64,000 nt of DNA from positions 62,001-126,000 of the forward strand of contig NZ_SLXQ01000011.1 of NCBI RefSeq assembly GCF_004340875.1, given 5' to 3'. The notes under the pieces were generated by a model. That model was not told the DNA's origin, searched no databases, and saw only the letters and a list, made by a program, of their open reading frames with translations. Source of the DNA: Tamaricihabitans halophyticus. GTDB lineage: Bacteria; Actinomycetota; Actinomycetes; Mycobacteriales; Pseudonocardiaceae. Of the stretch, positions 38,666 to 64,000 are shown piece after piece (position 1 is the stretch's first letter; every line of letters starts with the position of its first letter). The position numbers were made by a program, and so were the translations under genes.

Positions 38666-38765
38666 GAACTTCTCTCTAACGGGGACCATGGGACGCCGGC
38701 CGGGTTGGTCACGACGGCAGAACCGGGTGGGCGCCGGCAAACCGGACGCCTACCCGGTTACCGCA

Positions 38766-40598: not shown

Positions 40599-41047
40599 TA
40601 TGTAATCTCCGGTTCCAGCCGAATACCGAAAGCAACTGGGCGAGTTCCCCGACCAGCGGAAGTTTCTTAGCAACGACCACACGGGAAACTAGCCAAAATA
40701 GGCATGCACGGCATGTTCTTGACATCGATAAAAATTGTCAAACATCGCCCGACACCTGGGATTCGCCCGGTTAGGTACTAGCGCTCACGGCATGCCATCC
40801 GGTCAAATCTGAATTGTGCAACCGGCGAAATAAACACATCGTCGATCGCCGCCTAAAAACCGCCGCGTGTGCATTCCAAGTCAGTACAACCGAGATATTT
40901 CTGAAACGAAGGAAAGAAAGTCCCACGTCCAGCGAATCGGGACGACGTAGGGGACCTGGGGGCGCCAACCGCGTACCGTAATCCCGTGTCCCGCGAGTGG
41001 GTGAGCAGCCACGGTTCGACGTTTGGACCGTCGACGTAGGGAGCACC
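40599..41047. other. 449-bp intergenic region upstream of the methanethiol-oxidase homologue
   Basis: Contains an AT-rich core with TTGACA (40719-40724) and its exact complement TGTCAA (40736-40741). On the minus strand TTGACA is followed after 17 bp by GAACAT, a possible promoter about 110 bp before the oxidase gene. No coding sequence is seen; open frames here lack signals and are shadows. Confidence 0.4.
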
Positions 41048-47800: not shown

Positions 47801-48457
47801 ATGATCCGAGTCTTTCTCGTTGATGATCACGAGATCGTGCGGCGCGGTGTAGCCGATCTGATCGAGTCAGACCCTGAACTGACGGTCACCGGCGAGGCAA
47901 GCAGCGCCGCGCAGGCGCTGGCCAGGGTGCCGGCGCTACGTCCCGACGTGGTCATCCTGGATGTCCGGTTACCGGATGGCAACGGTATCGAGCTGTGTCG
48001 CGACCTCCGCGCCAAACTGCCCGAACTGGCCGCGCTGATCCTGACTTCCTACACCAACGAGGAAGCCATGCTGGACGCAGTTCTCGCGGGTGCCGGCGGC
48101 TATGTGATCAAGGATATCCAGGGTATGCGGCTGCTCTCGGCGATCCACGAAGTAGCCGAGGGCCGGTCGTTGTTGGATACCCGCGCTGCGGCGACCCTGA
48201 TGGACAAACTTCGGCAGGACAGCGCGCCGTCCGGGCCACTTGCCCAGCTGAGCCAGCGGGAACGGGACCTGCTCGAACTGATCGGCGAAGGGTTGACCAA
48301 CCGGCAGATCTCCGAGCGGATGTTCCTCGCCGAGAAAACGGTGAAGAACTATGTGTCCAGATTGCTCGGCAAACTGGACATGGAACGTCGCACGCAGGCA
48401 GCCGTACTGGCCACCGAATTGCGTAAGGACCGCCAGGACGGCGAGCGCAACTGGTAA
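47801..48457 (+). CDS. devR: DevR/DosR-like NarL-family response regulator
   Basis: 218 residues. Receiver residues match DevR numbering exactly: D8, D9, phospho-acceptor D54 ([10 protein letters not shown]), T82 and K104 (YVIKDI). The LuxR-type helix-turn-helix at about 148-205 reads [21 protein letters not shown] then MERRTQAAV, close to the DevR DNA-recognition helix. GAAGGAAGG precedes the ATG. With the DevS-like kinase it forms the hypoxia/NO-type two-component system of this locus. Confidence 0.88.
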
Positions 48458-48599
48458 CCAGCCGTCCCTGTCGGGTCGACCAGCCCGCCGTCAGCTGTCG
48501 CTGATCGACAAATTGCGCCACAATCGCTAGCGGAGACCTCGCGCGCGGGTCAACGCCTGGGCGAACCGTGGTCGGCGGACGGCGAGCGGAAGGCGACTG

Positions 48600-49817
48600 G
48601 TGCTCATGCGTAGGCAACTGCCGCGTTGGTCAGAGTTCAAGCCACTGCTGCGACCGCGGCGGATCAGCCTCAAGCCAGTGAACCGGCGACTCGCGGCCGC
48701 GCACACCATCGCGGACCTGCGCGCTATCTCGGCACGGCGGATACCGAGAGCGGTGTTCGACTATGTCGACGGCGCGGCTGAGGAGGAAGTCAGCATGCGC
48801 CGCGCCAGGGAAGCGTTCGACCAGGTCGAGTTCCGGCCGAACGTCCTCAGGGATGTCGGCACGGTGGATACCGAGGTATCCGTACTCGGCCGCACCTGGC
48901 CGGTGCCCTTCGCCTTGGCGCCTACCGGGTTCACCAGGATGCTCCAGCACGAAGGCGAGCGCGCGGTGGCGCGTGCGGCGCAGCGGACCGGCGTGACCTT
49001 TGCACTGTCCACAATGGCTAGCACGACGATCGAAACAGCCGCCGCGGAGGCACCAGCGGCGAACCGGTGGTTTCAGCTGTACGTTTGGCGCGATCATGGT
49101 TTCGCCAAGGAGCTCATCGAGCGCGCCCACGCTGCCGGCTACCAGGCGCTGATCCTCACCGTGGACACGCCGGTCGGTGGCGCGCGATTGCGCGATGTAC
49201 GCAACGGGCTGAGCATCCCGCCACAACTGACCGCGCGGACCGTGCTCGATGCGGCGCGGCACCCTAGCTGGTGGTTCAACCTCCTCACCACGGAGCCACC
49301 GACGGTGGCCGCGCTTGGCGACCGGCAGGGCACCGCCGCGCAGTTGGTGGACCAGCTGTTCGACCCCTCGATCACCTTCGCGGATCTCGACTGGATTCGC
49401 GGGGCCTGGCCGGGACCACTGATCGTGAAGGGAATCCAGACCGTCGCCGATGCCCGCGCGGCCGTCGACCATGGCGCGGACGCACTCGTGGTGTCCAACC
49501 ACGGCGGCAGGCAACTTGACCGAGCGCCTACCCCGCTGCGGCTGCTGCCTTCCGTTGTCGACGCGGTCGGCGATCGCGCTGAGGTGCTGATGGATTCCGG
49601 TCTGCGTAGCGGTAGCGACATCGCCGCGGCGATCGCCATGGGCGCGCGGGCCTGCCTGGTCGGCAGGGCGTTCCTGTACGGCTTGATGGCCGCCGGCGAG
49701 TTCGGCGTGCAGCGAGCCATCTCGATCTTGCACACCGAGCTGGCTCGAACCATGCGGCTGCTCGGGGTGTCGGCGGTCAGCGAGCTGAACCGGGAACACG
49801 CGATCCTACGCGATTGA
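48600..49817 (+). CDS. lldD: FMN-dependent alpha-hydroxy acid dehydrogenase (lactate/mandelate type)
   Basis: 405-residue TIM-barrel flavoenzyme oxidising L-2-hydroxy acids. Conserved parts are RIPRAVFDYVDGAAEEEVSM, the FMN segment PVPFALAPTGFTRMLQHEGE, LILTVDTPVGGARLRDVRNG, the catalytic H301 in VSNHGGRQLD and the phosphate loop LMDSGLRSGSDIAAAIAMGA. GTG at 48600 chosen for the GGAAGG 6 bp upstream; ATG at 48606 is an alternative. L-lactate or mandelate are the usual substrates; the acetamidase next door makes a hydroxy-amide route thinkable. Confidence 0.82.
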   Translation: MLMRRQLPRWSEFKPLLRPRRISLKPVNRRLAAAHTIADLRAISARRIPRAVFDYVDGAAEEEVSMRRAREAFDQVEFRPNVLRDVGTVDTEVSVLGRTWPVPFALAPTGFTRMLQHEGERAVARAAQRTGVTFALSTMASTTIETAAAEAPAANRWFQLYVWRDHGFAKELIERAHAAGYQALILTVDTPVGGARLRDVRNGLSIPPQLTARTVLDAARHPSWWFNLLTTEPPTVAALGDRQGTAAQLVDQLFDPSITFADLDWIRGAWPGPLIVKGIQTVADARAAVDHGADALVVSNHGGRQLDRAPTPLRLLPSVVDAVGDRAEVLMDSGLRSGSDIAAAIAMGARACLVGRAFLYGLMAAGEFGVQRAISILHTELARTMRLLGVSAVSELNREHAILRD

Positions 49818-49838
49818 ACACCCGCGAAAGGAGCACCA

Positions 49839-50840
49839 ATGGAGGTCGTCGAGTTCAGCCCAACCCCGGAGCAGTACGCGTGGACTTTCGGTGGCGTGGC
49901 GCCGATCCGGCACGTACGTCCGGGTAGCCTGCTGCGGCTGTGGACCGAGGACGCGTTCTGTGGAAACTTGCGCGATATTACCGATCTGCCAAGCCGCGCG
50001 CTCACGATGCCGTTCGTGAACCCACAGACCGGTCCGTTCTATGTGGACGGATCGGAGCCAGGTGACACCCTTGCGCTGCATTTCGTGGATCTCACTCCAG
50101 CGCGCGATTGGGCCGCATCCGCGACGATCCCGTTCTTCGGCGGGCTGACCGGCACCGACCGAACCGCGATGCTGCAGCCGGCACTCGACGAACGAACCTG
50201 GATCTACCACGTCAACAGTGCCCGGAACTCAGTCGAGTTCGTCGCGCATGCCAGCGATTTTCGCCTCGAGTTGCCGATGTCGCCGATGCTTGGCACGGTT
50301 GGGACGGCGCCGGCAGCTGGCGAGGCACGGTCCTCGCTCGTTCCCGATACCTTCGGCGGCAATATGGACACTCCGGAAATGCGCGCCGGGGCGACCTGTT
50401 TTCTAGCCGTCAACGTACCTGGCGCGCTGTTTTCGGTTGGCGATGGCCATTACCGGCAGGGTGAGGGCGAAGCCTGCGGCACCGCGGTTGAGGGCGCCAT
50501 GCATGTCACGATGCTCGTCGATCTGATCAAAGGCGGCGCTCCAGCGTGGCCACGAATCGAAACGGACGACCACCTGGCCTCGGTGGGTTCGAGCCGACCG
50601 CTCGAGGACGCATGGCGAGCCGGGCAACGCGACATGATCAGCTGGTTCGGCGAGCTCTACGGTCTGGACCCCCTGGACGGCTACCAGCTGCTCACCCAGA
50701 TCAGCGAAGCACCATTGGCCAATGTGGTGGATGCCAACTACAGCTCGGTCACGAAGGTGGCGAAACGCCTGTTGCCCACGGCCACGGCCTATCAGGGAAT
50801 GCACCAGAAGATGCGTCAGCTGGCCGCGACGATCGGCTGA
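49839..50840 (+). CDS. acetamidase/formamidase family protein
   Basis: 333-residue FmdA/AmdA family amidase. Family blocks seen: VRPGSLLRLWTEDAFCG, GPFYVDGSEPGDTLALHFVD, PDTFGGNMDTPEMRAGAT and LFSVGDGHYRQGEGEACGTAVE with the metal-site Asp/His/Glu. It hydrolyses short amides to acid and ammonia. Starts 21 bp after the hydroxyacid dehydrogenase with AAAGGAG, so the two are likely co-transcribed. Confidence 0.87.
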   Translation: MEVVEFSPTPEQYAWTFGGVAPIRHVRPGSLLRLWTEDAFCGNLRDITDLPSRALTMPFVNPQTGPFYVDGSEPGDTLALHFVDLTPARDWAASATIPFFGGLTGTDRTAMLQPALDERTWIYHVNSARNSVEFVAHASDFRLELPMSPMLGTVGTAPAAGEARSSLVPDTFGGNMDTPEMRAGATCFLAVNVPGALFSVGDGHYRQGEGEACGTAVEGAMHVTMLVDLIKGGAPAWPRIETDDHLASVGSSRPLEDAWRAGQRDMISWFGELYGLDPLDGYQLLTQISEAPLANVVDANYSSVTKVAKRLLPTATAYQGMHQKMRQLAATIG

Positions 50841-50882
50841 CCACCAGCAGCACCTCACCCGGAAGAACAGGAGTTCGGATCC

Positions 50883-51644
50883 ATGGACCTGCAACTGAAC
50901 GGGCTGCGCGCCCTGGTGACCGGCGGGACCAAGGGAATCGGCCGAGGGATCGTCGAAGCCCTCGTCGCGGAGGGCGCCAAGGTCGGCTTCTGCGCCCGCA
51001 CCGAGGAGCAGGTCAACGATTTCGCCGCCCAACTAACCGAAGCCGGGCACACCGCTACTGGGTCCGCTGTGGACGTCGCGGACATCGAAGCCGTTCGGTC
51101 CTGGGTGGACAACGCCGCGGCAGCACTCGGCGGGCTCGATATCGTCGTCGCCAACGTCAGCGCGCTGGCGATCCCCAACGAGCCATCGAACTGGCGGATC
51201 AGCTTCGACGTGGACCTGATGGGCACGGTTGGTCTCGTGGATGCCGCCATGCCGCATCTCGAGCGGAGCACCGCCCCGTCGATCGTGACGATCTCCAGCG
51301 TTTCCGGGAGGGAAATCGACTTCGCCGCTGGCCCCTATGGCACCTTCAAAGCCGCCATCATCCATTACACCCAAGGGTTGGCGTATCAGTTGGCGGCACA
51401 GGGAATCCGCGCAAACAGTGTCTCGCCCGGCAACACCTATTTCGCCGACGGCGTCTGGCAGACAATGGAGCAGAACAATCCGGAATTCTTCGCCGAGGCA
51501 CTCGCGCTCAACCCGACGGGCCGGATGGCCACCCCGGCGGAAGTAGCCAGGGGCGTCGCGTTTCTTGCCAGCCCGGCGGCAAGTTTCATCACCGGAACCA
51601 ATTTGCTGATCGACGGGGCGCTGACCCGCGGCGTGCAGTTCTGA
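50883..51644 (+). CDS. short-chain dehydrogenase/reductase
   Basis: 253-residue SDR with cofactor loop TGGTKGIGRGI, a divergent active-site strand VVANVSALA in place of NNAG, and catalytic Y152 and K156 (YGTFK). Looks like an NADP(H)-dependent 3-ketoacyl- or alcohol-type reductase of unknown substrate. Third gene of the small lldD-acetamidase-SDR run (42-bp gap). Confidence 0.83.
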   Translation: MDLQLNGLRALVTGGTKGIGRGIVEALVAEGAKVGFCARTEEQVNDFAAQLTEAGHTATGSAVDVADIEAVRSWVDNAAAALGGLDIVVANVSALAIPNEPSNWRISFDVDLMGTVGLVDAAMPHLERSTAPSIVTISSVSGREIDFAAGPYGTFKAAIIHYTQGLAYQLAAQGIRANSVSPGNTYFADGVWQTMEQNNPEFFAEALALNPTGRMATPAEVARGVAFLASPAASFITGTNLLIDGALTRGVQF

Positions 51645-51958
51645 TCCGATACCCGCAACGACCACTCGCGTGGAGTCACGCTCCGTACAGTTCACCAAAC
51701 GCAATACTCCTCCGGGGTTGCCCCCTGGTTCGATACGTTCGCTTGCCTCGCTGCTGACCGCGACGTTACTCGGCCAAACGACCGAAGATTCGTGCACGGT
51801 CCGCAAGGGTGCTGCTACCTTCGGCTCATGTCCCGTAAACGATCTTGAGCGCCGCACCCGAACCGAGCCACCGCCGCAGACCAGCCACAACGACCGCCCA
51901 GCTAATGCGTTGTCGTGTCATCGCGGAAGCGGTAACCCATTCTCCGGAGGAAGCTCCA
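51645..51958. other. 314-bp region upstream of the diterpene cyclase
   Basis: No convincing gene. The cyclase reading frame is open back to 51845, but the composition there does not look coding and a strong GGAGG (51946-51950) positions initiation at 51959. No promoter consensus stood out. Confidence 0.4.
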
Positions 51959-53602
51959 GTGGATTCAATTACAGCATTTCTGAAAAAGATTGACTCAACC
52001 GCATCGAATCTTGTTTCAGAAATGCTCAGCGATCCGTACGGAAAATACTCCCCATCCATTTATGAAACCGGGCGGGTAACCGCGGTCGCACCGGAGTTCG
52101 CCGGACAACAACTCAGATTGCAATTCCTCCTGCGGACCCAATGCGCGGACGGCAGCTGGACCGGACGACCGGGATACTGGATCCTACCTACCCTGAGCGC
52201 GACGGAAGCGCTGCTGCGCGCGATGCGAAATCCCCGGCAGGCGACGGCCGCGGGGATCCACGCCGAACACCTCGACCGCGCCGTGAGCGCCGCGCTGCGC
52301 GCGCTGCACGACCGGCTCGGCCCGACCGGCGAGGCACTACCCGATACCGTCGCGGTCGAAGCGCTCGTACCGTGGCTGGTGGATGAGGTAAACACGCAGC
52401 TCGGCGACGCGGATGACGGTGCGCTGGCCGGCCGTATCCCGGATGAACTGCGCCGACCACTGCGATACCCACCCGGGTGCATACCCGAACTGCTCGCCGA
52501 GCTTCGCGAGGCGGTGGCCCAGCGACAACCGATTCCCGACAAACTCCGGCATTCCAGCGAGATGCTGGGCACAGGCATCGCCGAGCTACCGGATTTCCAG
52601 CCGGTGACCGGTACTATTGGCTGCTCCCCCGCCGCAACCGCTACCTGGCTTGGCGAACGTCTCGAATACGAATCCGGTCATCCCTCGGCGCGCTACCTGA
52701 CCGAAGTGCAACGCCGCTATGCGGGTCTCGTGCCGGTCGCCGCGCCGCTACCTACCTTCGAACGCGCCTGGGTCAGCGCCACCATTCTGACCGCCGGCTT
52801 CGACGTCACTCCGCCAGCGCGCCTGGTCGCGGACCTTGACCAGGCGCTCGGCCAGGAAGGCGCCCCTGGCGGCGCTGGTCTGCCGCCAGATGTGGACGAC
52901 ACCGCGGCGGTGCTGCACACCCTGGCGCGCCTCGGTAGTCCGCGAGCGCCCACCGCGTTGTGGCATTACCTGGTCGATCCGCATTTCTGCTGCTATCCGA
53001 ACGAACGCACCCCGTCCACCAGCGCGAACGCGCATGTGCTGCTGGCACTCGGCGCCACGCTGCGGGTTGGCCAGGCCGCGGCGCGACGCCAGGTCGAGAT
53101 CATGCGCCGGTTGACCCAGTGGCTGTGCGCCCAGCAGCAGCTCGACGGCGCGTGGACGGACAAATGGCATGCCTCGCCCTACTACGCGACCGCGCGATGC
53201 GCGCTGAGCCTGCACGAGTACGGCGGCGCTACCGCACACCCCGCGCTGGACAAGGCCGTCTCGTGGGTACTCGCGAACCAACGTCCGGACGGCTCGTGGG
53301 GGCACTGGGAAGGCACCTACGAGGAAACGGCCTATGCCATGCAGATCCTGCGGTGTGGTCAGGCACCCAGATCAGCGACCGCCGATGAGGCGCTGGCGCG
53401 CGGCTGTGCGTTCCTGCTCGACTGGGATCCGACCGCCGAACATCCGCCGCTGTGGCACGACAAGGACCTCTATACGCCGATCAGAGTGGTGCGGATCGAA
53501 GGACTGGCCGCGCTGCGCACCGCGCTGAGCGATCCGCGCGTCACCAGGGCGCTGCGGCCACAGAGCGTGGAACGGATCGGCCAACCAATCGGCCAGCCGT
53601 AA
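51959..53602 (+). CDS. class II diterpene cyclase (CPS / halimadienyl diphosphate synthase-like)
   Basis: 547 residues from the GTG at 51959, 8 bp after GGAGG. The protonation motif DxDD of class II terpene cyclases is D311-V-D313-D314 in PPDVDDTAAVLHTLA. Repeats of the squalene/prenyl cyclase alpha-barrel are seen as QCADGSWTGRPGYW, LDGAWTDKWHASPYYATA and NQRPDGSWGHWEGTYEETAYAMQIL; the last two closely resemble Rv3377c, the halimadienyl (tuberculosinyl) diphosphate synthase. The class I DDxxD motif is absent. It should cyclise GGPP to a bicyclic diphosphate; no class I synthase, GGPP synthase or P450 is adjacent. Confidence 0.85.
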   Translation: MDSITAFLKKIDSTASNLVSEMLSDPYGKYSPSIYETGRVTAVAPEFAGQQLRLQFLLRTQCADGSWTGRPGYWILPTLSATEALLRAMRNPRQATAAGIHAEHLDRAVSAALRALHDRLGPTGEALPDTVAVEALVPWLVDEVNTQLGDADDGALAGRIPDELRRPLRYPPGCIPELLAELREAVAQRQPIPDKLRHSSEMLGTGIAELPDFQPVTGTIGCSPAATATWLGERLEYESGHPSARYLTEVQRRYAGLVPVAAPLPTFERAWVSATILTAGFDVTPPARLVADLDQALGQEGAPGGAGLPPDVDDTAAVLHTLARLGSPRAPTALWHYLVDPHFCCYPNERTPSTSANAHVLLALGATLRVGQAAARRQVEIMRRLTQWLCAQQQLDGAWTDKWHASPYYATARCALSLHEYGGATAHPALDKAVSWVLANQRPDGSWGHWEGTYEETAYAMQILRCGQAPRSATADEALARGCAFLLDWDPTAEHPPLWHDKDLYTPIRVVRIEGLAALRTALSDPRVTRALRPQSVERIGQPIGQP

Positions 53603-53611
53603 TCGCATCGG

Positions 53612-54781
53612 TCAGCGGCGTCCCGCCAGCAGCAACGCGACGGCGGTCAGGGCCATCATCCCGAACGCGGACAGCCACGCGGCGGGCACGCCCTGGGTAC
53701 TGGCGAGCACGCCAAAAATGATCGGGCCGAGCGCGCCGCCAATGAACACCCCGGTCTGGGTCACCGCGGTCGCCGTGGCGACCCGGTCCGGGAACCGCGC
53801 GGCGACCGCGAAGTTGAACACGCCCTGCCACGCCCAGCCGAAGCCAAAGCCGAGCACCAAACCAACCAGGAACAGCACCGGCTGCCCGAAGGCGAGCAAC
53901 AGGAAACCGATCGAGCCCACGATCACCATCGTGGTGACCATTCGGAGCAGGTTCGGCTTCCTGCGATCGGCGAGGGCACCGGCACCCAGCCGGCTCGCCA
54001 GGCCGGCCGCGGAACCGAGCGCGAGCATCAGGCCGGCGTTGCCCTCTTCATAACCGACCTCCACGGCGGTCAACGTCACGAACGCGCCCATCGCGTTCGC
54101 CGCGGCTGCCCCGAATCCCGCGGCGATGCTGAGCAGCGTGAGCAACACGCCCGTGGACCCACCGCTGTTCCGAACTCGCGCTTTTGGCCGGGTCCAGCGC
54201 AATCGGGGGACGCAGACGGCGCTGAGCAACGCGAGTAGCCCGGCGATCGCGAACACCCACCGCCAGCCAATCGTCAACGCGATCGCCGGCACCGCCAGTC
54301 CGGCGGAGAGCGTGGCGGCGGGAATGGCCGCCTGTTTGACGGCGAAGGCAAAACCACGCCGATCCGGCTTGACCCGCCGCATGAGCAGCTCGTTACTCGC
54401 GGGTTGGCACAGCGAATTGGTTACCCCGGCGAGGGCGATCACCCCGAGCAGCCAGCCGGCGTTCGGCACCGCGGCCAGTCCGAACAGGCACAGCGCGCTG
54501 CCCAGCGCCGCGGACCGCATCGCGATGGTCGGTCCGACCCGCTCGGTTACGGCCGCGAACGGTCGCGCCGAAACCGCGCCAGCGGCGAAGAAGATGGATG
54601 CGGCCGCGCCAAGTAGAGCCTCGGTGAGGCCGAGTTCGGCACGAAGCTGCACACCGAGGCCGCCGACCAGGAACACCGGCATGACACACACGGTGACCAG
54701 CAGGCCAACGGATAGCAGTACTCCGCCGGTACCTCGCTGGTCCCGACCGGCGTTGATCTGCTCGCTCTCCGCTAACGACAT
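53612..54781 (-). CDS. MFS transporter
   Basis: 389 residues from the ATG at 54781, twelve helices. Motif-A-like loops PFAAVTERVGP and GAGALADRRKPNLLRMV. Resembles the CynX/NimT-type or general small MFS carriers. Convergent with the diterpene cyclase (9-bp gap), so not its operon partner. Substrate unknown. Confidence 0.8.
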   Translation of the reverse strand: MSLAESEQINAGRDQRGTGGVLLSVGLLVTVCVMPVFLVGGLGVQLRAELGLTEALLGAAASIFFAAGAVSARPFAAVTERVGPTIAMRSAALGSALCLFGLAAVPNAGWLLGVIALAGVTNSLCQPASNELLMRRVKPDRRGFAFAVKQAAIPAATLSAGLAVPAIALTIGWRWVFAIAGLLALLSAVCVPRLRWTRPKARVRNSGGSTGVLLTLLSIAAGFGAAAANAMGAFVTLTAVEVGYEEGNAGLMLALGSAAGLASRLGAGALADRRKPNLLRMVTTMVIVGSIGFLLLAFGQPVLFLVGLVLGFGFGWAWQGVFNFAVAARFPDRVATATAVTQTGVFIGGALGPIIFGVLASTQGVPAAWLSAFGMMALTAVALLLAGRR

Positions 54782-54951
54782 GGCCACTTCGCAAAAGCTT
54801 AGCACTGCTATCTAACTAGTTTGGCTTGTCGTTGTGCGGTACTGACCACATGTCGCCGCGCGCCGCGGCGCGCGACTTCGGCCCGTTGGCGCCCGAACCG
54901 GCAGAGGGGTGGCCAATTCGGCCACCGGTGCGGGTGGGTTAGCGTTGCGCG

Positions 54952-57900
54952 GTGTCGTCCCCCGCAACCGGCTCATCTCCTGGGAAAAAGGTGCCTAGCT
55001 CGACAGAAGAAGATCAGGACACTGGCGCGACCAAGGCATCCGGGCCAGCCCCAGCTCGGTGGAGATCGCTCGCCGTCCTGTTGGGCCTGATCGCGGCCAT
55101 CTGCGCGATCGCGGTCCCCTTCCTGCCCGTCACGCAGGACACCGCCAAGATCGCGTGGCCGCACAATGGCGACACATCGCAGGTCAACGCTCCGTTAACG
55201 GCGTACTGGGCGCAGGATATGCAGATATCCGTGCCCTGCTCGTCCATCCAGTCGGTCGATGCGCGCCATCAGGACGGGCGCGCGATGCTGATGTCCACGG
55301 TGCCCCCGGACCGCACCGGTTTCGGGTCCGGGATGCAGCTACGAGTCGACGGTAATCTGCTCACCGTGGTCAACCGCGGCCAGCAGGTCGCGGAGCAACC
55401 ACTGCCGCCGCAGGGTTGCGATGTGCGCTACTCCTCGGACGCGCACTCGACGTCGGTCACCGCGGGCGGCGAAACCATCTTCGAGGAAGAGGGCGATATC
55501 CGCCCGCGGGTCCTCGGCATCTATTCGGATATCCAGGCCGAACGGGATCCGATTGACGGTCTGGGCGTTTCGATCACGCCGGACACCAGGTACGAATCCT
55601 CACCCACCCTCTGGAAGACCGCGATCTCGCTGATCGGTGTGCTCGCGTTGATCGGCTGCCTGATCGCGGTGAGCAAACTGGACGCGACGGGCGCCCGCCG
55701 CGCGCCCCGGCTGGTTCCACTCGGCTGGTGGCGGCTGAACCTGCGCGATGTCCTGGTCATCGGCGCACTCGGGATCTGGGTGATCATCGGCCCGGTCACC
55801 GCCGACGACGGGTACATCCTCTCGATGGCGAAGGTCCGCGAGGACGTTGGCTATCTCACCAACTACTACCGCTGGTTCGGCGTAGCCGAGGCACCGTTCG
55901 GCTGGTTTTACCACGTCTACGAGCTGATGACGCACGTCAGTTCGGCCCCACCCTGGGTTCGACTGCCCTCGTTCCTGCTCGGCGTACTCAGCTGGTTCCT
56001 GATCAGCCGCGAGGTGCTGCCTCGGCTGGGCACGGCGGTGCGCAGCAGCCGTGCCGCCGGCTGGGCCGCCGCCGCGGTGTTCCTGATCTGGTGGATGCCG
56101 TTCAACAACGGCTTGCGTCCCGAGCCGGTGGCCGCGGCTGGTTCCCTGCTCGCGCTGACCGCGGTCGAACGGGCACTGGTCACCCGCCGGCTGCTACCGC
56201 TGTGCCTCGGACTGATCGCGGCCGCATTCACCCTGGCCGCCACGCCAACCGGGATGATCGCGGTCGCACCGTTCCTCGTCTCCGCGCGGCCACTGGCACG
56301 ACTGCTGCGTAGTCGCGCGAGCGAAGGGGGCTGGCTGCAGCTACTGGCGCCGATCCTTGGCTCCGGATCCATCGTGCTGATCGTGGTGTTCGTCGACCAG
56401 ACCTTCGCCAGTGTGCTGGAAGCCACCAGGCTGCGGGGCTTGGTTGGTCCCAGCCTCGGCTGGTACGAGGAGTTCGCGCGCTATCGGCTGCTGTTCGACA
56501 GTAGCGCGGACGGCTCACTGAGCCGGCGGTTCCCGGTGCTGCTGCTGTTGTTGTGCACCGTTACCTGCCTTGCGGTACTGCTACGCCGCGGCCGGATTCC
56601 CGGTGCCGCGCTTGGCCCCACCCGTCGACTACTCGGCACCATCGCGCTGTTCTTCCTGCTGATGGCGCTGACCCCGACCAAGTGGACCCACCACTTCGGC
56701 GCGTTCGCCGCGGTTGGCGCCTCGATCGCGGCACTCACCGCACTGACCACGAGCGCGAACGTCCTGCGGTCCAAACGCAACCGGCGCGCGTTCCTCGCCG
56801 CGTTGCTCGGTATCTCCGCGCTCGCGGTGACCGGGCCCAACGCCTACTGGTTCGTGTCCAAACTGGGCGTTCCGTGGAACGATATTCCACCCGAGATTCT
56901 CGGTATCAGCATCGCGACCCTGCTGGTGCTGGCTGCCTTGGTGATGGCCGCGATCGCGTTCATCGAGAACATCAGGGCCGGTCTGCAGAACACCGACCAG
57001 TTCGTTCGCAAACCGGAACGGCCCCGCAGGGCGCTGCTGCTCGGTTCGGTGTCCCTGGTGGCGATCTGTGGCGCGGTCGCCATCGCGGAATTTGGCAGCA
57101 TGGCCAAGGCGATCCACAAGCAACGAGACAGCTACAGCCTCGGCGCGGCAAACTTCGAGCACCTCTACAAGAGCAGCTGCAACCTCGGCGACTACGTGAC
57201 AGTGGAGCGCGATCCGATCGCCAGCGTGCTCCAGCCACTGCCGCCGGAACAACAGCGCACGGTGAATCCCAATCCGGCACCACCGGACCCAGGCGTTGAG
57301 CTACCACCGCTGGAACGGACCACCGAACGGGTCCAGGTTGGTTTCCACAGCGATCCGGTTGCGCACGATGACCCGATCTCAAAGCCGCCACACGGTTCCA
57401 AGACCGAAAATGCTCCAATGTGGAGCAGTTTCCGCAACGAGCAGAGCCCGATCGGTCAGCTGCGCACCAACTGGTACGCCTTGCCGGCGGAGGCTGACGA
57501 TCAGGAGGTCGCGATCTCCGTCGCCGGTGAGGAAGACAAGGCCGTTGAGATCAGAGCCGAGTTCGGCAAGCACACCCCCAACGGCATCGAGGTGGTTCGG
57601 GAAACCACCGTGGAGATGAAGGAGTCCGAATCCAGCACCTGGGCCGATACCCGGTTCGCCGCCAGGGAGTCCGCCGAGGACGAGGTCATGCGCCTGGTCG
57701 TGGAGGACAACGACGTCACCGAAGACGGCTGGATAGCGCTGACCAGTCCACGGTTGCCGGAACTCACCACGCTCACTGAACTCGTCGGTGACGAACCGAC
57801 CTATATGGACTGGCCGGCTGGCTTCGTGTATCCCTGCGTCCAGCTGCCAACCACCCAGGACGGGATCAGCGAGATTCCGAAGTACCGCATCACGGCTTCG

Positions 57901-58158
57901 CCACTGGCTGGCGACGGGAATGTCTCCTCAGCCAAGGGCGGCGGCCCACTCGGCTGGATCGAAGAGGTCGCCAATCAGCCCGAGGTACCCAGCTACCTGG
58001 CCGGGGACCGCGACCAACCGTGGGGCCAGCTACTCAAGGTGGAGCCGTATGAGGACGGTGTCGAACCACACGTGATTCGCGAACAGGAAGTCCGACCAGG
58101 TTGGTGGTCGCCGGGGCCAGGGCCGAGCCAAGCGGACGGGAGTACTGAGCCTCGCTAA
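54952..58158 (+). CDS. arabinosyltransferase, EmbA/B/C family
   Basis: 1068 residues, the normal length of Emb GT-C glycosyltransferases that build cell-wall arabinan from decaprenylphosphoryl-arabinose. About 13 membrane helices. The catalytic loop has D285-D286 in VTADDGYILSMAKVREDVGYLTNYYRWF, followed by APFGWFYHVYELM. Residues about 700-1068 are the extracytoplasmic carbohydrate-binding C-terminal domain. GTG start at 54952. Only one copy lies here, unlike the embCAB cluster of mycobacteria. Marks an arabinogalactan-containing cell wall. Confidence 0.92.
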   Translation: MSSPATGSSPGKKVPSSTEEDQDTGATKASGPAPARWRSLAVLLGLIAAICAIAVPFLPVTQDTAKIAWPHNGDTSQVNAPLTAYWAQDMQISVPCSSIQSVDARHQDGRAMLMSTVPPDRTGFGSGMQLRVDGNLLTVVNRGQQVAEQPLPPQGCDVRYSSDAHSTSVTAGGETIFEEEGDIRPRVLGIYSDIQAERDPIDGLGVSITPDTRYESSPTLWKTAISLIGVLALIGCLIAVSKLDATGARRAPRLVPLGWWRLNLRDVLVIGALGIWVIIGPVTADDGYILSMAKVREDVGYLTNYYRWFGVAEAPFGWFYHVYELMTHVSSAPPWVRLPSFLLGVLSWFLISREVLPRLGTAVRSSRAAGWAAAAVFLIWWMPFNNGLRPEPVAAAGSLLALTAVERALVTRRLLPLCLGLIAAAFTLAATPTGMIAVAPFLVSARPLARLLRSRASEGGWLQLLAPILGSGSIVLIVVFVDQTFASVLEATRLRGLVGPSLGWYEEFARYRLLFDSSADGSLSRRFPVLLLLLCTVTCLAVLLRRGRIPGAALGPTRRLLGTIALFFLLMALTPTKWTHHFGAFAAVGASIAALTALTTSANVLRSKRNRRAFLAALLGISALAVTGPNAYWFVSKLGVPWNDIPPEILGISIATLLVLAALVMAAIAFIENIRAGLQNTDQFVRKPERPRRALLLGSVSLVAICGAVAIAEFGSMAKAIHKQRDSYSLGAANFEHLYKSSCNLGDYVTVERDPIASVLQPLPPEQQRTVNPNPAPPDPGVELPPLERTTERVQVGFHSDPVAHDDPISKPPHGSKTENAPMWSSFRNEQSPIGQLRTNWYALPAEADDQEVAISVAGEEDKAVEIRAEFGKHTPNGIEVVRETTVEMKESESSTWADTRFAARESAEDEVMRLVVEDNDVTEDGWIALTSPRLPELTTLTELVGDEPTYMDWPAGFVYPCVQLPTTQDGISEIPKYRITASPLAGDGNVSSAKGGGPLGWIEEVANQPEVPSYLAGDRDQPWGQLLKVEPYEDGVEPHVIREQEVRPGWWSPGPGPSQADGSTEPR

Positions 58159-59017: not shown

Positions 59018-61180
59018 CTACTCGAAAATCTCGCCGCGCTCCGCCTTGGCCACCAGCGAAGCTGGCGGCGCGAACCGCTCACCGTAGTGGTCGGCCAACT
59101 CCTTGGCACGGGCGACGAAACCCGCTACCCCGCCGGCGTAGTTGTTGATGTACTGGATCACACCACCGGTCCATGCCGGGAAGCCGATGCCCATAATGGA
59201 CCCGATATTCGCGTCCTGGACCGACCGAAGCACGCCCTCGTCGAAGCACTTCACCGTCTCCAGCGCCTCCGCGAACAGCATCCGCTCCTTCATGTCCTCG
59301 AAGGGCAGCTCGGTACCCCGCGCGAAGTGCTCCGCGAGCCCTTCCCACAGACCGGCACGTTTGCCGTCCGCGTAGTTGTAGAAACCCGCTCCGGCGGATT
59401 TCCCGCCACGTTCGAACTTGTCGACCATCCGGTCGATCACCGAATCCGCCGGATGCGGTGCCCAGGTGCCACCCGCCGCCTCCACCGCGGCCTTGGTCTC
59501 CTCCCGAATCTTGCGCGGCAGGGTCAGGGTCAGCTCATCCATTAGCTGCAGTGGCGGCGCGGGATAACCTGCCTGCGAACCAGCCTGTTCCACAGAGGAC
59601 GGTGCTACGCCCTCGGCGACCATGGCAACGGCTTCGTTGATAAACGTGCCGATCACCCTGCTGGTGAAAAAGCCCCTGCTGTCATTGACCACGATGGGGG
59701 TTTTCTTGATTTGCTGCGCGACGTCGATCGCCTTGGCAAGCGTCGCCTCGCTGGTCTTCTCACCACAGATGATCTCGAGCAGCGGCATCTTGTCCACAGG
59801 GGAAAAGAAGTGCAACCCGATGAAGTCGTCCTGCCGCTTGACACCTTCGGCGAGGCCGGTGATCGGGAGCGTCGAGGTGTTCGAACCGAGTACCGCGTTC
59901 GGTGCGACGATGTCTTCGATCTCCTGGAAGACCTTGTGCTTGAGTTCCTGGCTCTCGAATACCGCTTCGATCACCAGGTCGCAGCCGGCAAGGTCGTTCG
60001 GATCGGCGGTCGGGGTGATCCTGGCAAGCGTCTCGTCGGCTTTGTCCTGGGTGAGCTTGCCGCGCGAGACCTGCTTGTCGAACAGCGCTACCGAATAGCC
60101 CTTGCCCTTGTCCGCGTTCTCCTGAGAGACATCCTTGAGCATGACCTGCATACCGCCCCGCGCGCAGACGTAGGCGATCGCGGCCCCCATCATGCCGGCC
60201 CCCAGCACCGCCACCTTGTTCGCGGTGAACGTCGGATAGCCATCCGGGCGGGAGCCACCCGAGTTGATGTGCTGCAGATCGAAGAAGAAAGCCTTGGTCA
60301 TGTTCTTCGCGACCGGACCGGTTGCCAGCTCGACGAAGTACCGCGACTCGATCACGAACGCGGTGTCCACATCGACCTGTGTTCCCTCGATCGCAGCCGC
60401 CATGATCTTGCGCGGCGCGGGCATGTTCGCGCCCTTGAGCTGCTTACGCAGGTTCGCAGGGAACGCGGGCAGATTGGCCGCAAAGCTCGGATTGCTCGGG
60501 GTGCCGCCGGGGATCTTGTACCCCTTGGTGTCCCACGGCTGGGCCGCTTCGGGGTTTGCCTTGATCCAGGCCTTGGCTGCGGGCACCAGCTCATCCACCG
60601 AGGACGTCAGCTCATTGACCAGTCCCAACTCGGCAGCCTTCGCCGGCTTGTGTCGCTGGCCCTGCAACAACACGTTCAGCAGGGCGTTCTGAATCCCCAG
60701 CAGTCGTACCGTACGCACGATCCCGCCACCGCCCGGCAGCAGACCGAGACTCACCTCGGGCAGGCCGATCTGCGAGCCGCGCACATCGGCCGCGATGCGA
60801 TAGTGACAGGACAGGGCGATCTCCAGGCCGCCACCGAGCGCGGCGCCGTTGATGGCCGCGACCACAGGCTTGCCAAGCTTTTCCAGCCGGCGCAGCTGTG
60901 CCTTGGTTTCGGTGACCTGCTTGAAGACCTCCTCGGCGTGTTCCGGCTGCACCTGGATCAGATCATTGAGGTCGCCACCGGCGAAGAACGTCTTCTTCGC
61001 GGACGTGATAACGACACCGGTGATCGAGTCGCGCTCGGCCTCGAGCCGGTCCACGGTAGCGGCCATCGCGGACCGGTACGTCTCGTTCATCGTGTTGGCC
61101 GACTGATCCGGGTCGTCCATGGTGAGTACGACGATGCCGTCCGCGTCGGACTCCCAGCGAATCATGTTCTGTTCAGTCAT
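59018..61180 (-). CDS. fadB: 3-hydroxyacyl-CoA dehydrogenase / enoyl-CoA hydratase (FadB-type)
   Basis: 720-residue multifunctional beta-oxidation protein. Residues about 1-200 are a crotonase domain (FFAGGDLNDL; INGAALGGGLEIALSCHYRI). The NAD-binding domain starts at about residue 325 with VAVLGAGMMGAAIAYVCARGG and contains FFSPVDKMPLLEII; the C-terminal dehydrogenase domain follows. Catalyses hydration of enoyl-CoA and oxidation of 3-hydroxyacyl-CoA. It starts 34 bp after the fadA stop, forming the standard actinobacterial fadA-fadB operon. Confidence 0.92.
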   Translation of the reverse strand: MTEQNMIRWESDADGIVVLTMDDPDQSANTMNETYRSAMAATVDRLEAERDSITGVVITSAKKTFFAGGDLNDLIQVQPEHAEEVFKQVTETKAQLRRLEKLGKPVVAAINGAALGGGLEIALSCHYRIAADVRGSQIGLPEVSLGLLPGGGGIVRTVRLLGIQNALLNVLLQGQRHKPAKAAELGLVNELTSSVDELVPAAKAWIKANPEAAQPWDTKGYKIPGGTPSNPSFAANLPAFPANLRKQLKGANMPAPRKIMAAAIEGTQVDVDTAFVIESRYFVELATGPVAKNMTKAFFFDLQHINSGGSRPDGYPTFTANKVAVLGAGMMGAAIAYVCARGGMQVMLKDVSQENADKGKGYSVALFDKQVSRGKLTQDKADETLARITPTADPNDLAGCDLVIEAVFESQELKHKVFQEIEDIVAPNAVLGSNTSTLPITGLAEGVKRQDDFIGLHFFSPVDKMPLLEIICGEKTSEATLAKAIDVAQQIKKTPIVVNDSRGFFTSRVIGTFINEAVAMVAEGVAPSSVEQAGSQAGYPAPPLQLMDELTLTLPRKIREETKAAVEAAGGTWAPHPADSVIDRMVDKFERGGKSAGAGFYNYADGKRAGLWEGLAEHFARGTELPFEDMKERMLFAEALETVKCFDEGVLRSVQDANIGSIMGIGFPAWTGGVIQYINNYAGGVAGFVARAKELADHYGERFAPPASLVAKAERGEIFE

Positions 61181-61214
61181 TCGGTGTCTCGATTCCCTTT
61201 CGAAGTCCGGCCGT

Positions 61215-62429
61215 TCAGACGCGCTCGATCAGGGTCGCCAGCCCCATGCCGCCGCCAATGCACAAGGTGATCACGGCGCGGTTGGCCTGCCGCCGTTCCA
61301 ACTCGTCCACCATCGTGCCCGTGATCATCGCGCCAGTAGCGCCGAGCGGATGGCCCATCGCGATGGCACCACCGTTGACGTTGAGCTTCTCGTCCGGGAT
61401 ACCCAGATCCTTCTGGTACTTCAGCACAACGGAAGCGAACGCCTCGTTCAGCTCGAACAGATCGATATCGGCCACCGAAAGCCCGGTCTTGGCGAGCAGC
61501 TTGCGAGTGGCCGGCGTCGGCCCGGTCAGCATGATCGTCGGATCGGCACCGCTGGTGGCGGTCGCCACTACACGGGCCCTCGGGGTCAGGCCGAGTTCGT
61601 TGCCGACCTGCTCGCTGCCGATCAGCAGCAGCGCGGCGCCGTCCACGATGCCCGAGGAGTTCGCGGCGGTGTGTACGTGGTTGATCGCCGCTACGGAGTG
61701 GTACTTCTGCAGGGCGACCGCGTCGAACCCGCCCATCTCGCCAATGCCCTCGAACGATGGCGAGAGCTTGCCCAACCCGGCAACCGTGGACTCCGGCCGC
61801 ATATGTTCATCGTGGTCGAGGATGGTGATGCCGTTCTGGTCCTTCACCGGGATCACGGACTTCGAGAAGTAACCGCCGGACCACGCGGCCGCGGCGCGCT
61901 CCTGCGAGCGCACGGCATAGCTGTCCACGTCCTCGCGGGAGAAGCCCTCGATCGTGGCGATCAGGTCAGCGCCGATTCCCTGCGGTACGAAGTAGGTCTC
62001 GTAGCTCGTCTCCGGGTCCATCGCCATCGCGCCGCCATCAGAGCCCATCGGCACCCTGGACATGGACTCGACGCCACCGGCGAGCAGCAGCTCGTCGAAC
62101 CCGGCACGTACCTTCTGTGCCGCGGTGTTCACCGCTTCCAGCCCCGAAGCGCAGAACCGGTTGAGCTGTACCCCGGCAACGTGGTCGGGCAGTCCGGCGG
62201 CCAGCGCGGCGATACGCGCGATCACCGAACCCTGGTCACTCACCGGCGAGACCACGCCGAGAATGACGTCCTCCAGCCGGTCGGTGTCCAGATTCGGGTG
62301 CCGCTTACGCAGTTCGTCGATCAAGCCGACCACCAGTGAGATCGGCTTCACCCCATGCAACGAGCCGGTCGCCTTGCCGCGACCGCGTGGGGTGCGGATC
62401 GCGTCGTAAATGAATGCTTCGGTACTCAC
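61215..62429 (-). CDS. fadA: acetyl-CoA acyltransferase (thiolase, FadA-type)
   Basis: 404 residues from the GTG at 62429, chosen because the family starts MSxEAFIYxAIRTPRG; an ATG at 62453 would add eight residues. Nucleophile C93 in [11 protein letters not shown], the His segment [15 protein letters not shown], and the second Cys in TLCIGGGMG. Cleaves 3-ketoacyl-CoA to acetyl-CoA in beta-oxidation with FadB. Confidence 0.9.
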
Positions 62430-62563
62430 GCTAGAACCGGTCCTCTCTGACATACCCACGTTCGACGAGACCCATGTTCCGGTTGGGCCCACGCTCGGCT
62501 GGCATCCGTCGCGCCGCGCCCGACCCGGCGGTTAGCCCCGAGTCTACGATGCGAATAAGCATT

Positions 62564-62880: not shown

Positions 62881-64000
62881 ATGACGGCCGAGGTGAGTGC
62901 CGCGCCCCGGCCGCGCGGAACCCGCAAACAGCAGCTCGGCGCGGTCGCGGCGAACCTGTTCCTCGAACACGGCTACCTCGGCGTCGGCGTCAACGACATC
63001 GCCACCGCGGCGGGTATCAGCGGGCCCGCGCTGTACCGACACTTCCCTAGCAAACAGGCATTGCTGGCGCATGTACTACTCGAAGGCATCGGACACGTGC
63101 AGCACGCGGCCAGCGGGCAGCTGCATTCGATGCGAGCGCCGAGGACCAGGCTGGACGCCTTCGCGACCGCGCTCGCCGAGGTAGCGGTCACCCACCGCGG
63201 CGCGGCCGCGTTATGGCGCTGGGAAGGCAGGCACCTCGCCGAACACGACAGGGAACAGGTTCTCGGCACGGCGAACGAGGTCATGACGGACTGGGTCGCG
63301 TTGCTGCGCGAAGCCCGGCCCGAACTATCCGCCTCGGCCGCCCAATTGCGCTGCTGGGCCGCGTTGAGCGTGTTCGGCAGTGTCGCCGTACACCGCACAA
63401 GCCTGCCCAAACGCCAGTACGTACCGCTGATCGCGCGGCTGGCGATGGCCGTACTCGATGCCCACCTGCCGTCCTCGGTACCGCCACGCCCCGTCTCAAT
63501 CGAGCCAGACCAACCCTCGACCACCAAACGCGAGGAGCTACTTGCCGCGGCAACCACACTGTTTCGCCGGCACGGTTTCCCCGCGGTCAGCGTCGAGGAG
63601 ATCGGCCAGTCCGTCGGGCTGGCCGCGGCCAGCGTGTACCGGCACTTCCCCAGCAAGGCGGATATGCTGCTGGCCGCCTGCCACCGGATGGCGGCAACGC
63701 TACGAGCCGAAGCCGAGCACGCGGTCATGGCCGCCGACAACCCGGCAGAGGCGCTCGACCGGCTCCTCACCGCCTACGTCGACATCGCCGCGGACAACCG
63801 CGATCTGCTGGCCGTCTACAGCACGGACACGCTGCATCTGCCACGAAGCAGGCGGGCCGAGCTGACCAGTCTGCAGCGGGATTACGTGGCGCACTGGGTG
63901 GAGCTGGATCGTCGGTTGCGGCCGGCCCGTACCGAGCGGGCGAGTCGGATCGCCGTACACGCGACCCTGACCATCGTGAACGATCTGGTCCGTACCGGGA
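62881..64000 (+). CDS. tandem TetR-TetR fusion transcriptional regulator, partial
   Basis: The frame is open from the ATG at 62881 through the right edge (373 codons), so the C-terminus is missing. Two complete TetR units are fused: the first helix-turn-helix spans about residues 15-66 (AVAANLFLEHGYLGVGVNDI, GISGPALYRHFPSKQALL). The second begins at about residue 215 (ELLAAATTLFRRHGF, VGLAAASVYRHFPSKADML). Each is followed by its own helical ligand domain. Divergent from fadA-fadB, hence a likely fatty-acid-responsive regulator of that operon; this is inference. Confidence 0.85.
   Translation, partial: MTAEVSAAPRPRGTRKQQLGAVAANLFLEHGYLGVGVNDIATAAGISGPALYRHFPSKQALLAHVLLEGIGHVQHAASGQLHSMRAPRTRLDAFATALAEVAVTHRGAAALWRWEGRHLAEHDREQVLGTANEVMTDWVALLREARPELSASAAQLRCWAALSVFGSVAVHRTSLPKRQYVPLIARLAMAVLDAHLPSSVPPRPVSIEPDQPSTTKREELLAAATTLFRRHGFPAVSVEEIGQSVGLAAASVYRHFPSKADMLLAACHRMAATLRAEAEHAVMAADNPAEALDRLLTAYVDIAADNRDLLAVYSTDTLHLPRSRRAELTSLQRDYVAHWVELDRRLRPARTERASRIAVHATLTIVNDLVRTG

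Follow-up and report, generated by a model that had tools for sequence, protein, structure and literature searches.

An isolated diterpene cyclase gene of Tamaricihabitans halophyticus and candidate partner genes at a second locus

A class II diterpene cyclase gene and its predicted product

The DNA analysed here, called the window throughout, is a stretch of 64,000 nucleotides from the actinomycete Tamaricihabitans halophyticus (NCBI RefSeq assembly GCF_004340875.1), positions 62001-126000 of contig NZ_SLXQ01000011.1 (C11 below) in a draft genome that amounts to 6.39 Mb in 50 contigs and is 98.67% complete. A gene on its forward strand at 51959..53602 codes for a protein of 547 amino acids, a class II diterpene cyclase (DTC) predicted to be of the labdane or copalyl diphosphate (CPP) type and present as a single copy in the genome. 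The reading frame is uninterrupted for 547 codons from a GTG at 51959 to the stop at 53602, and a GGAGGA that is probably the ribosome-binding site (51946..51951, + strand) lies 7 nt 5' of the GTG. There is an alternative upstream TTG at 51845 in the same frame. In the sister genome (G001, the one genus-mate compared, whose DTC is 54% identical to that of the window), an in-frame Met aligns with position 51959, and there is also one earlier ATG.

The protein was closest to PtmT2 by both sequence and predicted structure. A phmmer search of the PDB found 15 distinct sequences at E 0.001, with 5bp8 (PtmT2; 1.7e-110, 373.6 bits) as the best match, followed by Tpn2 (7xkx; 255.8 bits) and Rv3377c (6vpt; 91.0 bits). 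The AlphaFold2 model, made from 13 aligned sequences (predicted local distance difference test, pLDDT, 83.5; predicted template-modelling score, pTM, 0.87), has the beta-gamma two-domain alpha-barrel fold expected of class II DTCs, and Foldseek ranked the same three structures in the same order: 5bp8 (E 1.3e-32, TMq 0.81), 7xkx (TMq 0.75), and 6vpt (TMq 0.69, E 1.1e-17). This ranking is among solved structures, with unsolved enzymes such as n-CPP synthases outside the comparison. The only Pfam matches were squalene-hopene cyclase domains, SQHop_cyclase_C at 2.2e-18 and the N-terminal domain at 0.00063, under the cut-off. The intact reading frame, these matches, and the presence of the acid motif agree with the original prediction, made from the letters of the window, that the gene encodes a class II DTC, and its numbering of D313 and D314 fits a DVDD motif at residues 311-314. 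That prediction had also placed the enzyme close to Rv3377c and had the DVDD motif following that protein. Neither point held: Rv3377c was a distant third in bit score and TMq, and it has DCDT at the site of the motif.

The residues with known roles in related cyclases are present in the window DTC. We aligned it with Tpn2 (used for numbering), PtmT2, and 34 relatives, and took residue roles from PMC9814783 (this and the other papers cited are used from excerpts). The DVDD motif (D311-V312-D313-D314; 52889..52900; this and the following residues are on the + strand) contains the general acid, D313. H359 (53033..53035) corresponds to Tpn2 H342, the activator of the catalytic Asp, and K402-W403 (53162..53167) correspond to Tpn2 K383, which binds diphosphate, and W384, which is part of the active-site wall. 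D129xxxxE134 (D129-TVAV-E134; 52343..52360), the proposed metal-binding motif of bacterial class II DTCs, matches Tpn2 D114 and E119, and PtmT2 also has both the D and the E. Y505 (53471..53473) is equivalent to Tpn2 Y489, and H198, F267, W271, L308, and W499 are further Tpn2-equivalent residues that have been kept.

The switch position between labdane and other skeletons is Asp. D501 (53459..53461) aligns with PtmT2 D502, Tpn2 G485, and Rv3377c A475, and the residue was Asp in 34/34 relatives compared. The excerpt of PMC9814783 describes Gly at this position in the clerodane enzyme Tpn2 and Asp in the labdane enzyme PtmT2, a Gly-to-Asp variant of Tpn2 that made syn-CPP-derived products alongside the original product, and Ala in Rv3377c, whose family has mostly Gly or Ala there. 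Because the catalytic residues are kept and the switch is Asp, we predict that the window DTC is a labdane-type CPP synthase. By analogy with PtmT2 alone, its nearest relative, the CPP is probably the ent form.

The cassette and its two loci

Across Pseudonocardiaceae, the gene for this type of DTC is usually found at the head of a cassette that also encodes a cytochrome P450, a UbiA protein, and a methyltransferase. At the emb locus of the sister genome the order is a methyltransferase (MTup, - strand), DTC, P450, UbiA, a second methyltransferase (MTdn, -), a major facilitator superfamily (MFS) transporter (-), and EmbC. DTC, P450, and UbiA were together at 14/20 family loci read at 17-20 kb (tblastn, 1e-10). 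Among 297 family genomes (cut-offs E 1e-20 for the DTC and E 1e-15 for the UbiA subfamily), the DTC was found in 83 and the UbiA in 65, with both in 62, UbiA alone in 3, and DTC alone in 21 (Fisher p 1e-41, uncorrected for kinship); these counts may be low because this first look scores few candidates per genome. UbiA was present in 38/38 genomes with a DTC of at least 430 bits (the window's own included), in 45/46 at 400 bits or more, and in 46/49 at 350 bits or more. The two genes were no more than 5 kb apart in 57 of the 62 genomes that had both. For the best 80 of 400 confirmed DTC loci in a named collection, P450 and UbiA were beside the DTC at 33, and a methyltransferase at 26; 22 of those 33 loci are by title Amycolatopsis, Prauserella, or Saccharomonospora. 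In the quick DTC tree described below, the window DTC falls in a 31-row group (Shimodaira-Hasegawa-like approximate likelihood ratio test, SH-aLRT, 96) in which 29 rows are UbiA-linked, and the other two, the window genome and G015, have UbiA elsewhere. Among the matches listed in the open-access literature, we found no described product of this cassette, and the excerpts of PMC10055836, PMC11476799, and PMC13307353 do not touch on it.

Some loci in these collections had features of their own. In 12 genomes of genus g8 (e.g., G229:C13 271476-272375), the match to the DTC began only at residue 187/188; many of these genomes have open frames near 450 amino acids, and UbiA is ~1.1 kb away in 12/12. 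The N-terminus of the g8 cyclase may be truncated or highly divergent. Two record titles may be wrong: DTC locus L122 (JOAA01000064.1, titled Rhodococcus rhodnii) resembles Kibdelosporangium (L125), and L149 (NZ_LGDY01000092.1, titled Nocardia sp. NRRL S-836) resembles Lentzea (L137).

The rest of the cassette is missing from the DTC locus in the window. P450 and UbiA do not lie directly downstream; the gene for a convergent MFS transporter (53612..54805, - strand; 73% identical to the sister protein) has its stop at 53612, leaving 9 bp past the DTC, and in the sister P450-UbiA-MT lies between the two. Further downstream, synteny with the sister is anchored by an EmbC-type arabinosyltransferase (54952..58158, +; 75% identical) and by a FadB-type enzyme and a thiolase (59018..62492, -; 82% and 87%; FadB is the rate control below), and extends to an F420-type oxidoreductase (83%) and a gene at 62973-63770 (51%). 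Upstream, a short-chain dehydrogenase/reductase (50883..51644, +) is separated from the DTC by 314 bp; it is outside the conserved cassette and has no match in the sister stretch read. None of the six upstream neighbours tested had a match within the sister's 40-kb stretch. Elsewhere in the window, two adjoining long open reading frames (36899-38740, -, and 38766-40682, -; 613 and 638 amino acids) had no Pfam match at E 0.001.

Searches for the missing genes on contig C11 were negative. The P450, UbiA, and methyltransferase references from the cassette had no match in the window at 1e-10 and none at 1e-3 in four C11 stretches outside it (C11 40001-42000 and 146000-196179 were unread). PF19086 and PF00348 had matches elsewhere in the genome and none on C11; PF00067 (P450) was not searched genome-wide. 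At window 48000-58000, P450 and UbiA queries found no cassette leftovers at E 1. One methyltransferase query gave an antisense match of 73 amino acids at 50553-50765 (E 0.001) and another gave 63 amino acids at E 0.54; we treated the former as chance because 39/40 methyltransferase queries gave nothing at 0.05. Within the reach of these searches, the DTC is the local orphan that the original prediction described, with no class I synthase, prenyltransferase, geranylgeranyl diphosphate (GGPP) synthase, or P450 beside it.

The remaining cassette genes are together on another contig, C1 (1.54 Mb). They are MTup (C1 889660-890697, -), P450 (C1 890764-892005; with haem and ExxR motifs), UbiA (C1 891995-892933, equal to L067 9496-10434; Pfam UbiA 3.1e-17), and MTdn (C1 892947-893774, -), in the same order and on the same strands as in the sister, with only the DTC missing. 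The Pfam domains of the C1 cassette proteins and of the G001 UbiA are P450, UbiA, and Methyltransf_19. The two methyltransferases are 49% and 50% identical to their positional counterparts in the sister, with a cross-match of 30%. The C1 module and the C11 DTC locus are at least ~0.7 Mb apart. A search for a leftover DTC at C1 gave nothing beyond matches of E 0.41 and 0.65. The right flank of the module (TetR and a flavin adenine dinucleotide monooxygenase) is kept at G001:C24 without the cassette; the start of that contig, 4.5 kb to the left, prevents a comparison of the left side, and a search of G001 with the left-flank gene found no match at 1e-60. The local orphan status of the DTC is explained by this split, with P450-UbiA-MT at a second locus, and a UbiA-type partner at a distance had indeed been guessed. 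The split may have arisen by relocation or by duplication and complementary loss.

The C1 proteins have the features of their families. The UbiA model (pLDDT 90.9) had the UbiA homologues 4tq4 (E 3.0e-08) and 4tq3 as best folds, and phmmer matched the protein to no PDB sequence at E 0.1. The motifs N71xxxD75xxxD79 and D205xxxD209 were invariant in 12 aligned proteins; with the predicted membrane fold, these NxxxDxxxD and DxxxD motifs place it in the UbiA superfamily. NCBIfam matches of the P450 were all below cut-off, the first being a P450 of ribosomally synthesised and post-translationally modified peptides (ApyO) and the second a pentalenene oxygenase. The genome has three PF00348 (GGPP-synthase-type) genes, on C5, C10, and C2, and one or more of them could supply GGPP.

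The genome also has a lone class I terpene synthase (PF19086) on its contig C24 (L003 1309-2223, equal to G000:C24 49656-50570), with 6oh6 as best PDB match (1.7e-24). There is no ATG, GTG, or TTG before its conserved N-terminal part. At E 1e-20 it was found in 3/297 family genomes, including the window's and not the sister's, and at 1e-6 at none of the best 80 named DTC loci. Its rarity, its absence from those loci, and the lack of a standard start make it weak as a main partner. In G088, a relative of the C24 synthase is 5.3 kb from a more distant DTC (L043, L063; C37 62604-63443 and 68743-70143), a possible class I/II pair.

Several other genomes have unlinked or rearranged cassettes. The best DTC and UbiA are 1.28 Mb apart in G015 and 1.97 Mb apart in G091, where the DTC is still with a P450. 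These are no simple relocations because the unlinked UbiA belongs to a separate branch, which also includes the second copies of G241 and G256. Members of that branch lie away from the DTC (G015:C1 2576659, G091:C1 2133465, G241:C55 95020, G256:C1 258010), and no other UbiA copy was found in G015 and G091, as though a paralogue had assumed the role. In G162, linkage is only via a distant second DTC (~31%), and the close DTC, with a P450, is ~252 kb from UbiA. G172 is an assembly break, with the DTC end directly before P450-UbiA at the end of C32 and the rest on C45. At L108 (G287:C96 90000-109900), P450-UbiA-MT form a block that no DTC precedes, and the other strand carries a 38% DTC ~13.5 kb away; G287 perhaps has another rearranged cassette.

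Ancestry and rate of change

Careful trees of the DTC and of the P450 paired the window genome with its sister. We made a quick DTC tree with 85 of 110 DTC proteins (near-identical ones dropped) plus PtmT2 and Tpn2, and more careful trees with rows chosen from the window's 31-row group and its neighbours (35 rows for DTC, 33 for P450, and 35 for UbiA). In the careful trees, support for the pairing with the sister was 95/96 for the DTC and 100/97 for the C1 P450. Because both pair with the sister, the trees point to one ancestral cassette for the DTC and the P450; the C1 module belongs to the cassette lineage.

The window's copies have long end branches. In the careful trees, the window and sister end branches were 0.985 and 0.284 for the DTC (0.98 and 0.45 in the quick tree) and 0.973 and 0.282 for the P450; for UbiA they were 1.05 and 0.64, although the two are not sisters in that tree. 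End branches of FadB, the sole control gene, were 0.123 and 0.119 (quick tree, 28 of 34 matching genomes). In the careful trees, the end branches of the window genome's DTC and P450 (L067 8265-10434 locus) are thus both ~3.5 times those of the sister, though the genes are now unlinked, with FadB even.

The extra change in the window DTC spares conserved columns. The protein departs at 4/124 columns conserved in at least 97% of the 34 relatives, and the count for the relatives, each scored with itself left out, is 0-7 of 120-126. The C1 P450 departs at 4/51 conserved columns, all outside the haem and ExxR motifs, a count for which no relatives were scored alongside.

Proposed pathway, alternatives and comparison with known systems

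On balance, we favour the reading that the window DTC is the detached first enzyme of a DTC-P450-UbiA-methyltransferase cassette, in which GGPP is converted to CPP, presumably ent-CPP, and then acted on by UbiA and then by P450. D313 would protonate GGPP, and the bicyclic cation would be quenched with help of D501 to give the labdane-type CPP. The C1 UbiA would work in the membrane as a class I synthase, ionising CPP to form the end hydrocarbon, for which an ent-atiserane-like skeleton is one precedent. The C1 P450 would oxidise this hydrocarbon, and the C1 methyltransferases may methylate the product or regulate the pathway. With P450-UbiA-MT at the second locus, the pathway would therefore run from two loci. 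This reading draws on the nearness to PtmT2, the kept catalytic residues and D501, the co-occurrence and close linkage of DTC and UbiA in the family, the C1 module in the gene order of the sister, the careful DTC and P450 trees, the intact motifs of the C1 UbiA and P450, and the PtmT1 precedent given below. Of the two outcomes that had been proposed for the orphan, a distant partner or the diphosphate itself as product, the UbiA/P450 module on C1 speaks for the first, and the second is possible and not the best reading.

Several observations weigh against a two-locus CPP pathway. The C1 UbiA matched NCBIfam models of prenyltransferases or related synthases, all far below cut-off, and its sequence appears to read as cyclase or prenyltransferase alike. 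Genes in two loci may lack co-expression, and a search limited to the sigma-70 type found nothing resembling a promoter ahead of the DTC. Misassembly is possible in a draft genome such as this one, with its 50 contigs. Three residues that line the Tpn2 pocket, T177, T181, and G244, are K195, S199, and A261 in the window DTC, with K195 as in PtmT2. G271, G206, and G290 have DTCs of 356-407 bits without such a UbiA, and 47 of the best 80 named loci have no UbiA beside the DTC. Four of these 47 (L137, L138, L149, L165) have a downstream P450 (42-48% identity) and no UbiA in the stretch examined, and at the other 43 the only P450 matches are upstream ones of 24-36%; second cyclases were outside this comparison. 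The quick DTC tree put the window DTC beside Amycolatopsis rows (88) and not beside the sister. The careful UbiA tree joined the C1 UbiA with another species (86/91), not the sister; the C1 protein is inside the cassette family, and its pairing with the sister was not rejected (approximately unbiased test, p-AU 0.31).

Other readings of the same genes seem less probable to us. If the C1 UbiA were a prenyltransferase, it would join the bicyclic C20 diphosphate to an acceptor, and the P450 and methyltransferases would tailor the resulting meroterpenoid. Such an enzyme would suit the presence of both Asp motifs in UbiA, the prenyltransferase models that come nearest to it in NCBIfam, and its resemblance in fold to solved UbiA homologues such as 4tq4. 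We nevertheless think this unlikely. Across 22 stretches compared, no gene cluster beyond DTC, methyltransferase, UbiA, and P450 recurred in more than 6 (functions unassigned), which leaves no regular neighbour for making an acceptor, and there is direct precedent for a UbiA-type synthase acting on ent-CPP in the excerpts of PMC10301674 and PMC10847714. In the latter, PtmT1 is the dedicated ent-atiserene synthase of the platencin branch and uses ent-CPP; the excerpt of the former ascribes ent-atiserene to a UbiA-type synthase and does not name PtmT1. It is also quite improbable that the DTC is a true orphan, with the diphosphate or its alcohol as product, or that its partner is the unlinked C24 class I synthase. 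That synthase is the one PF19086 protein in the genome, its best PDB match is labdane-related, and a relative is near a DTC in G088; against this stand the rarity, the absence from the best named loci and the missing start described above, and the presence of UbiA in every one of the 38 genomes with the closest DTCs.

The long end branches of the window's DTC, P450, and UbiA, compared with the even ones of FadB, would be consistent with a pathway in decay, in which selection relaxed because of the split and the genes are being lost. We give this little credence: the reading frames are full length, the catalytic residues are kept, the departures of the DTC from conserved columns are within the range of its relatives, and those of the P450 are outside its motifs. 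The identity proposed in the original prediction, a tuberculosinyl-type (halimadienyl) diphosphate synthase, is the least credible by far. Rv3377c (6vpt) shares the superfamily and fold, as the Foldseek match indicates. However, we rejected its closeness to the window DTC on the bit scores, the order of predicted-structure matches, DCDT versus DVDD, and the Asp switch, where the Rv3377c family has mostly Gly or Ala (excerpt of PMC9814783). Further, a search for PF01255 (cis-prenyltransferase) found just two genes in the genome; both match strongly and both lie outside C11, with no search made using Rv3378c itself. A Pfam scan of 20 window proteins, in which Rv3378c was likewise not a query, showed no Rv3378c-like neighbour.

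A broader idea, which we hold as tentative and rather doubtful, builds on the two-locus pathway. A minimal diterpenoid pathway of class II cyclase, P450, UbiA-type class I synthase, and Methyltransf_19 proteins would be common to many Pseudonocardiaceae, with a product that we did not find described in the open-access literature. In the window lineage it would have become a two-locus pathway, and the cyclase and P450 would have changed ~3.5 times faster than in the sister, their cores kept, because they were being retooled to a new skeleton.

The analysis dispels a misleading connection with a tuberculosis lipid and provides a gene pair ready for expression. It also offers an explanation, in the form of a candidate partner encoded elsewhere in the genome, for one CPP synthase that has no second cyclase beside it, and a search for remote P450-UbiA modules would tell how many such cases are split pathways. 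Should the cassette function as a trait of Pseudonocardiaceae, its diterpenoid product would be expected in many members of Amycolatopsis and Prauserella and in some of Saccharomonospora.

The best PDB match of the C24 synthase, 6oh6, which we take to be LrdC, is a labdane-related class I diterpene synthase; the C24 synthase is unlinked to the DTC, lacks a standard start before its conserved N-terminal part, and is rare in the family. Rv3377c (halimadienyl/tuberculosinyl diphosphate synthase) belongs to the same fold family, with an acid motif of DCDT and an Ala switch in place of DVDD and D501, and its partner protein Rv3378c is not known to belong to the UbiA superfamily. PtmT2, the ent-CPP synthase of platensimycin and platencin, is the best match by sequence (42.7% identity over 501 aligned residues) and by fold, and both proteins have the DxDD and DxxxxE motifs, the activating His, the diphosphate Lys, and the Asp switch. 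According to the literature, the ent-CPP of the PtmT2 pathway is passed on to a UbiA-type synthase. However, PtmT2 falls outside the 31-row tree group of the window DTC and, according to the literature, is part of a large antibiotic cluster, whereas the window gene stands alone. Tpn2 (terpentedienyl/clerodane diphosphate synthase; 33.7% identity over 481 residues) has the fold and the acid motif in common with the window DTC and differs in having Gly at the switch; its partner is the type I synthase Tpn3 (excerpt of PMC9814783).

Among the closest known systems are the DTC-UbiA clusters in the excerpt of PMC9814783. There, a genome neighbourhood network of 342 actinobacterial ent-CPP-synthase clusters had a likely UbiA cyclase in 14%, and 67 clusters had no second cyclase unless it was a noncanonical one. 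Those clusters and the window genome have the same cyclase subfamily, as judged by nearest relative, and the same kind of partner; unlike in those clusters, the UbiA, P450, and methyltransferases of the window genome are at another locus. DTC-UbiA clusters were thus already known, and to them we add the recurring four-gene order in Pseudonocardiaceae and an example of a split cassette whose remote half has been located.

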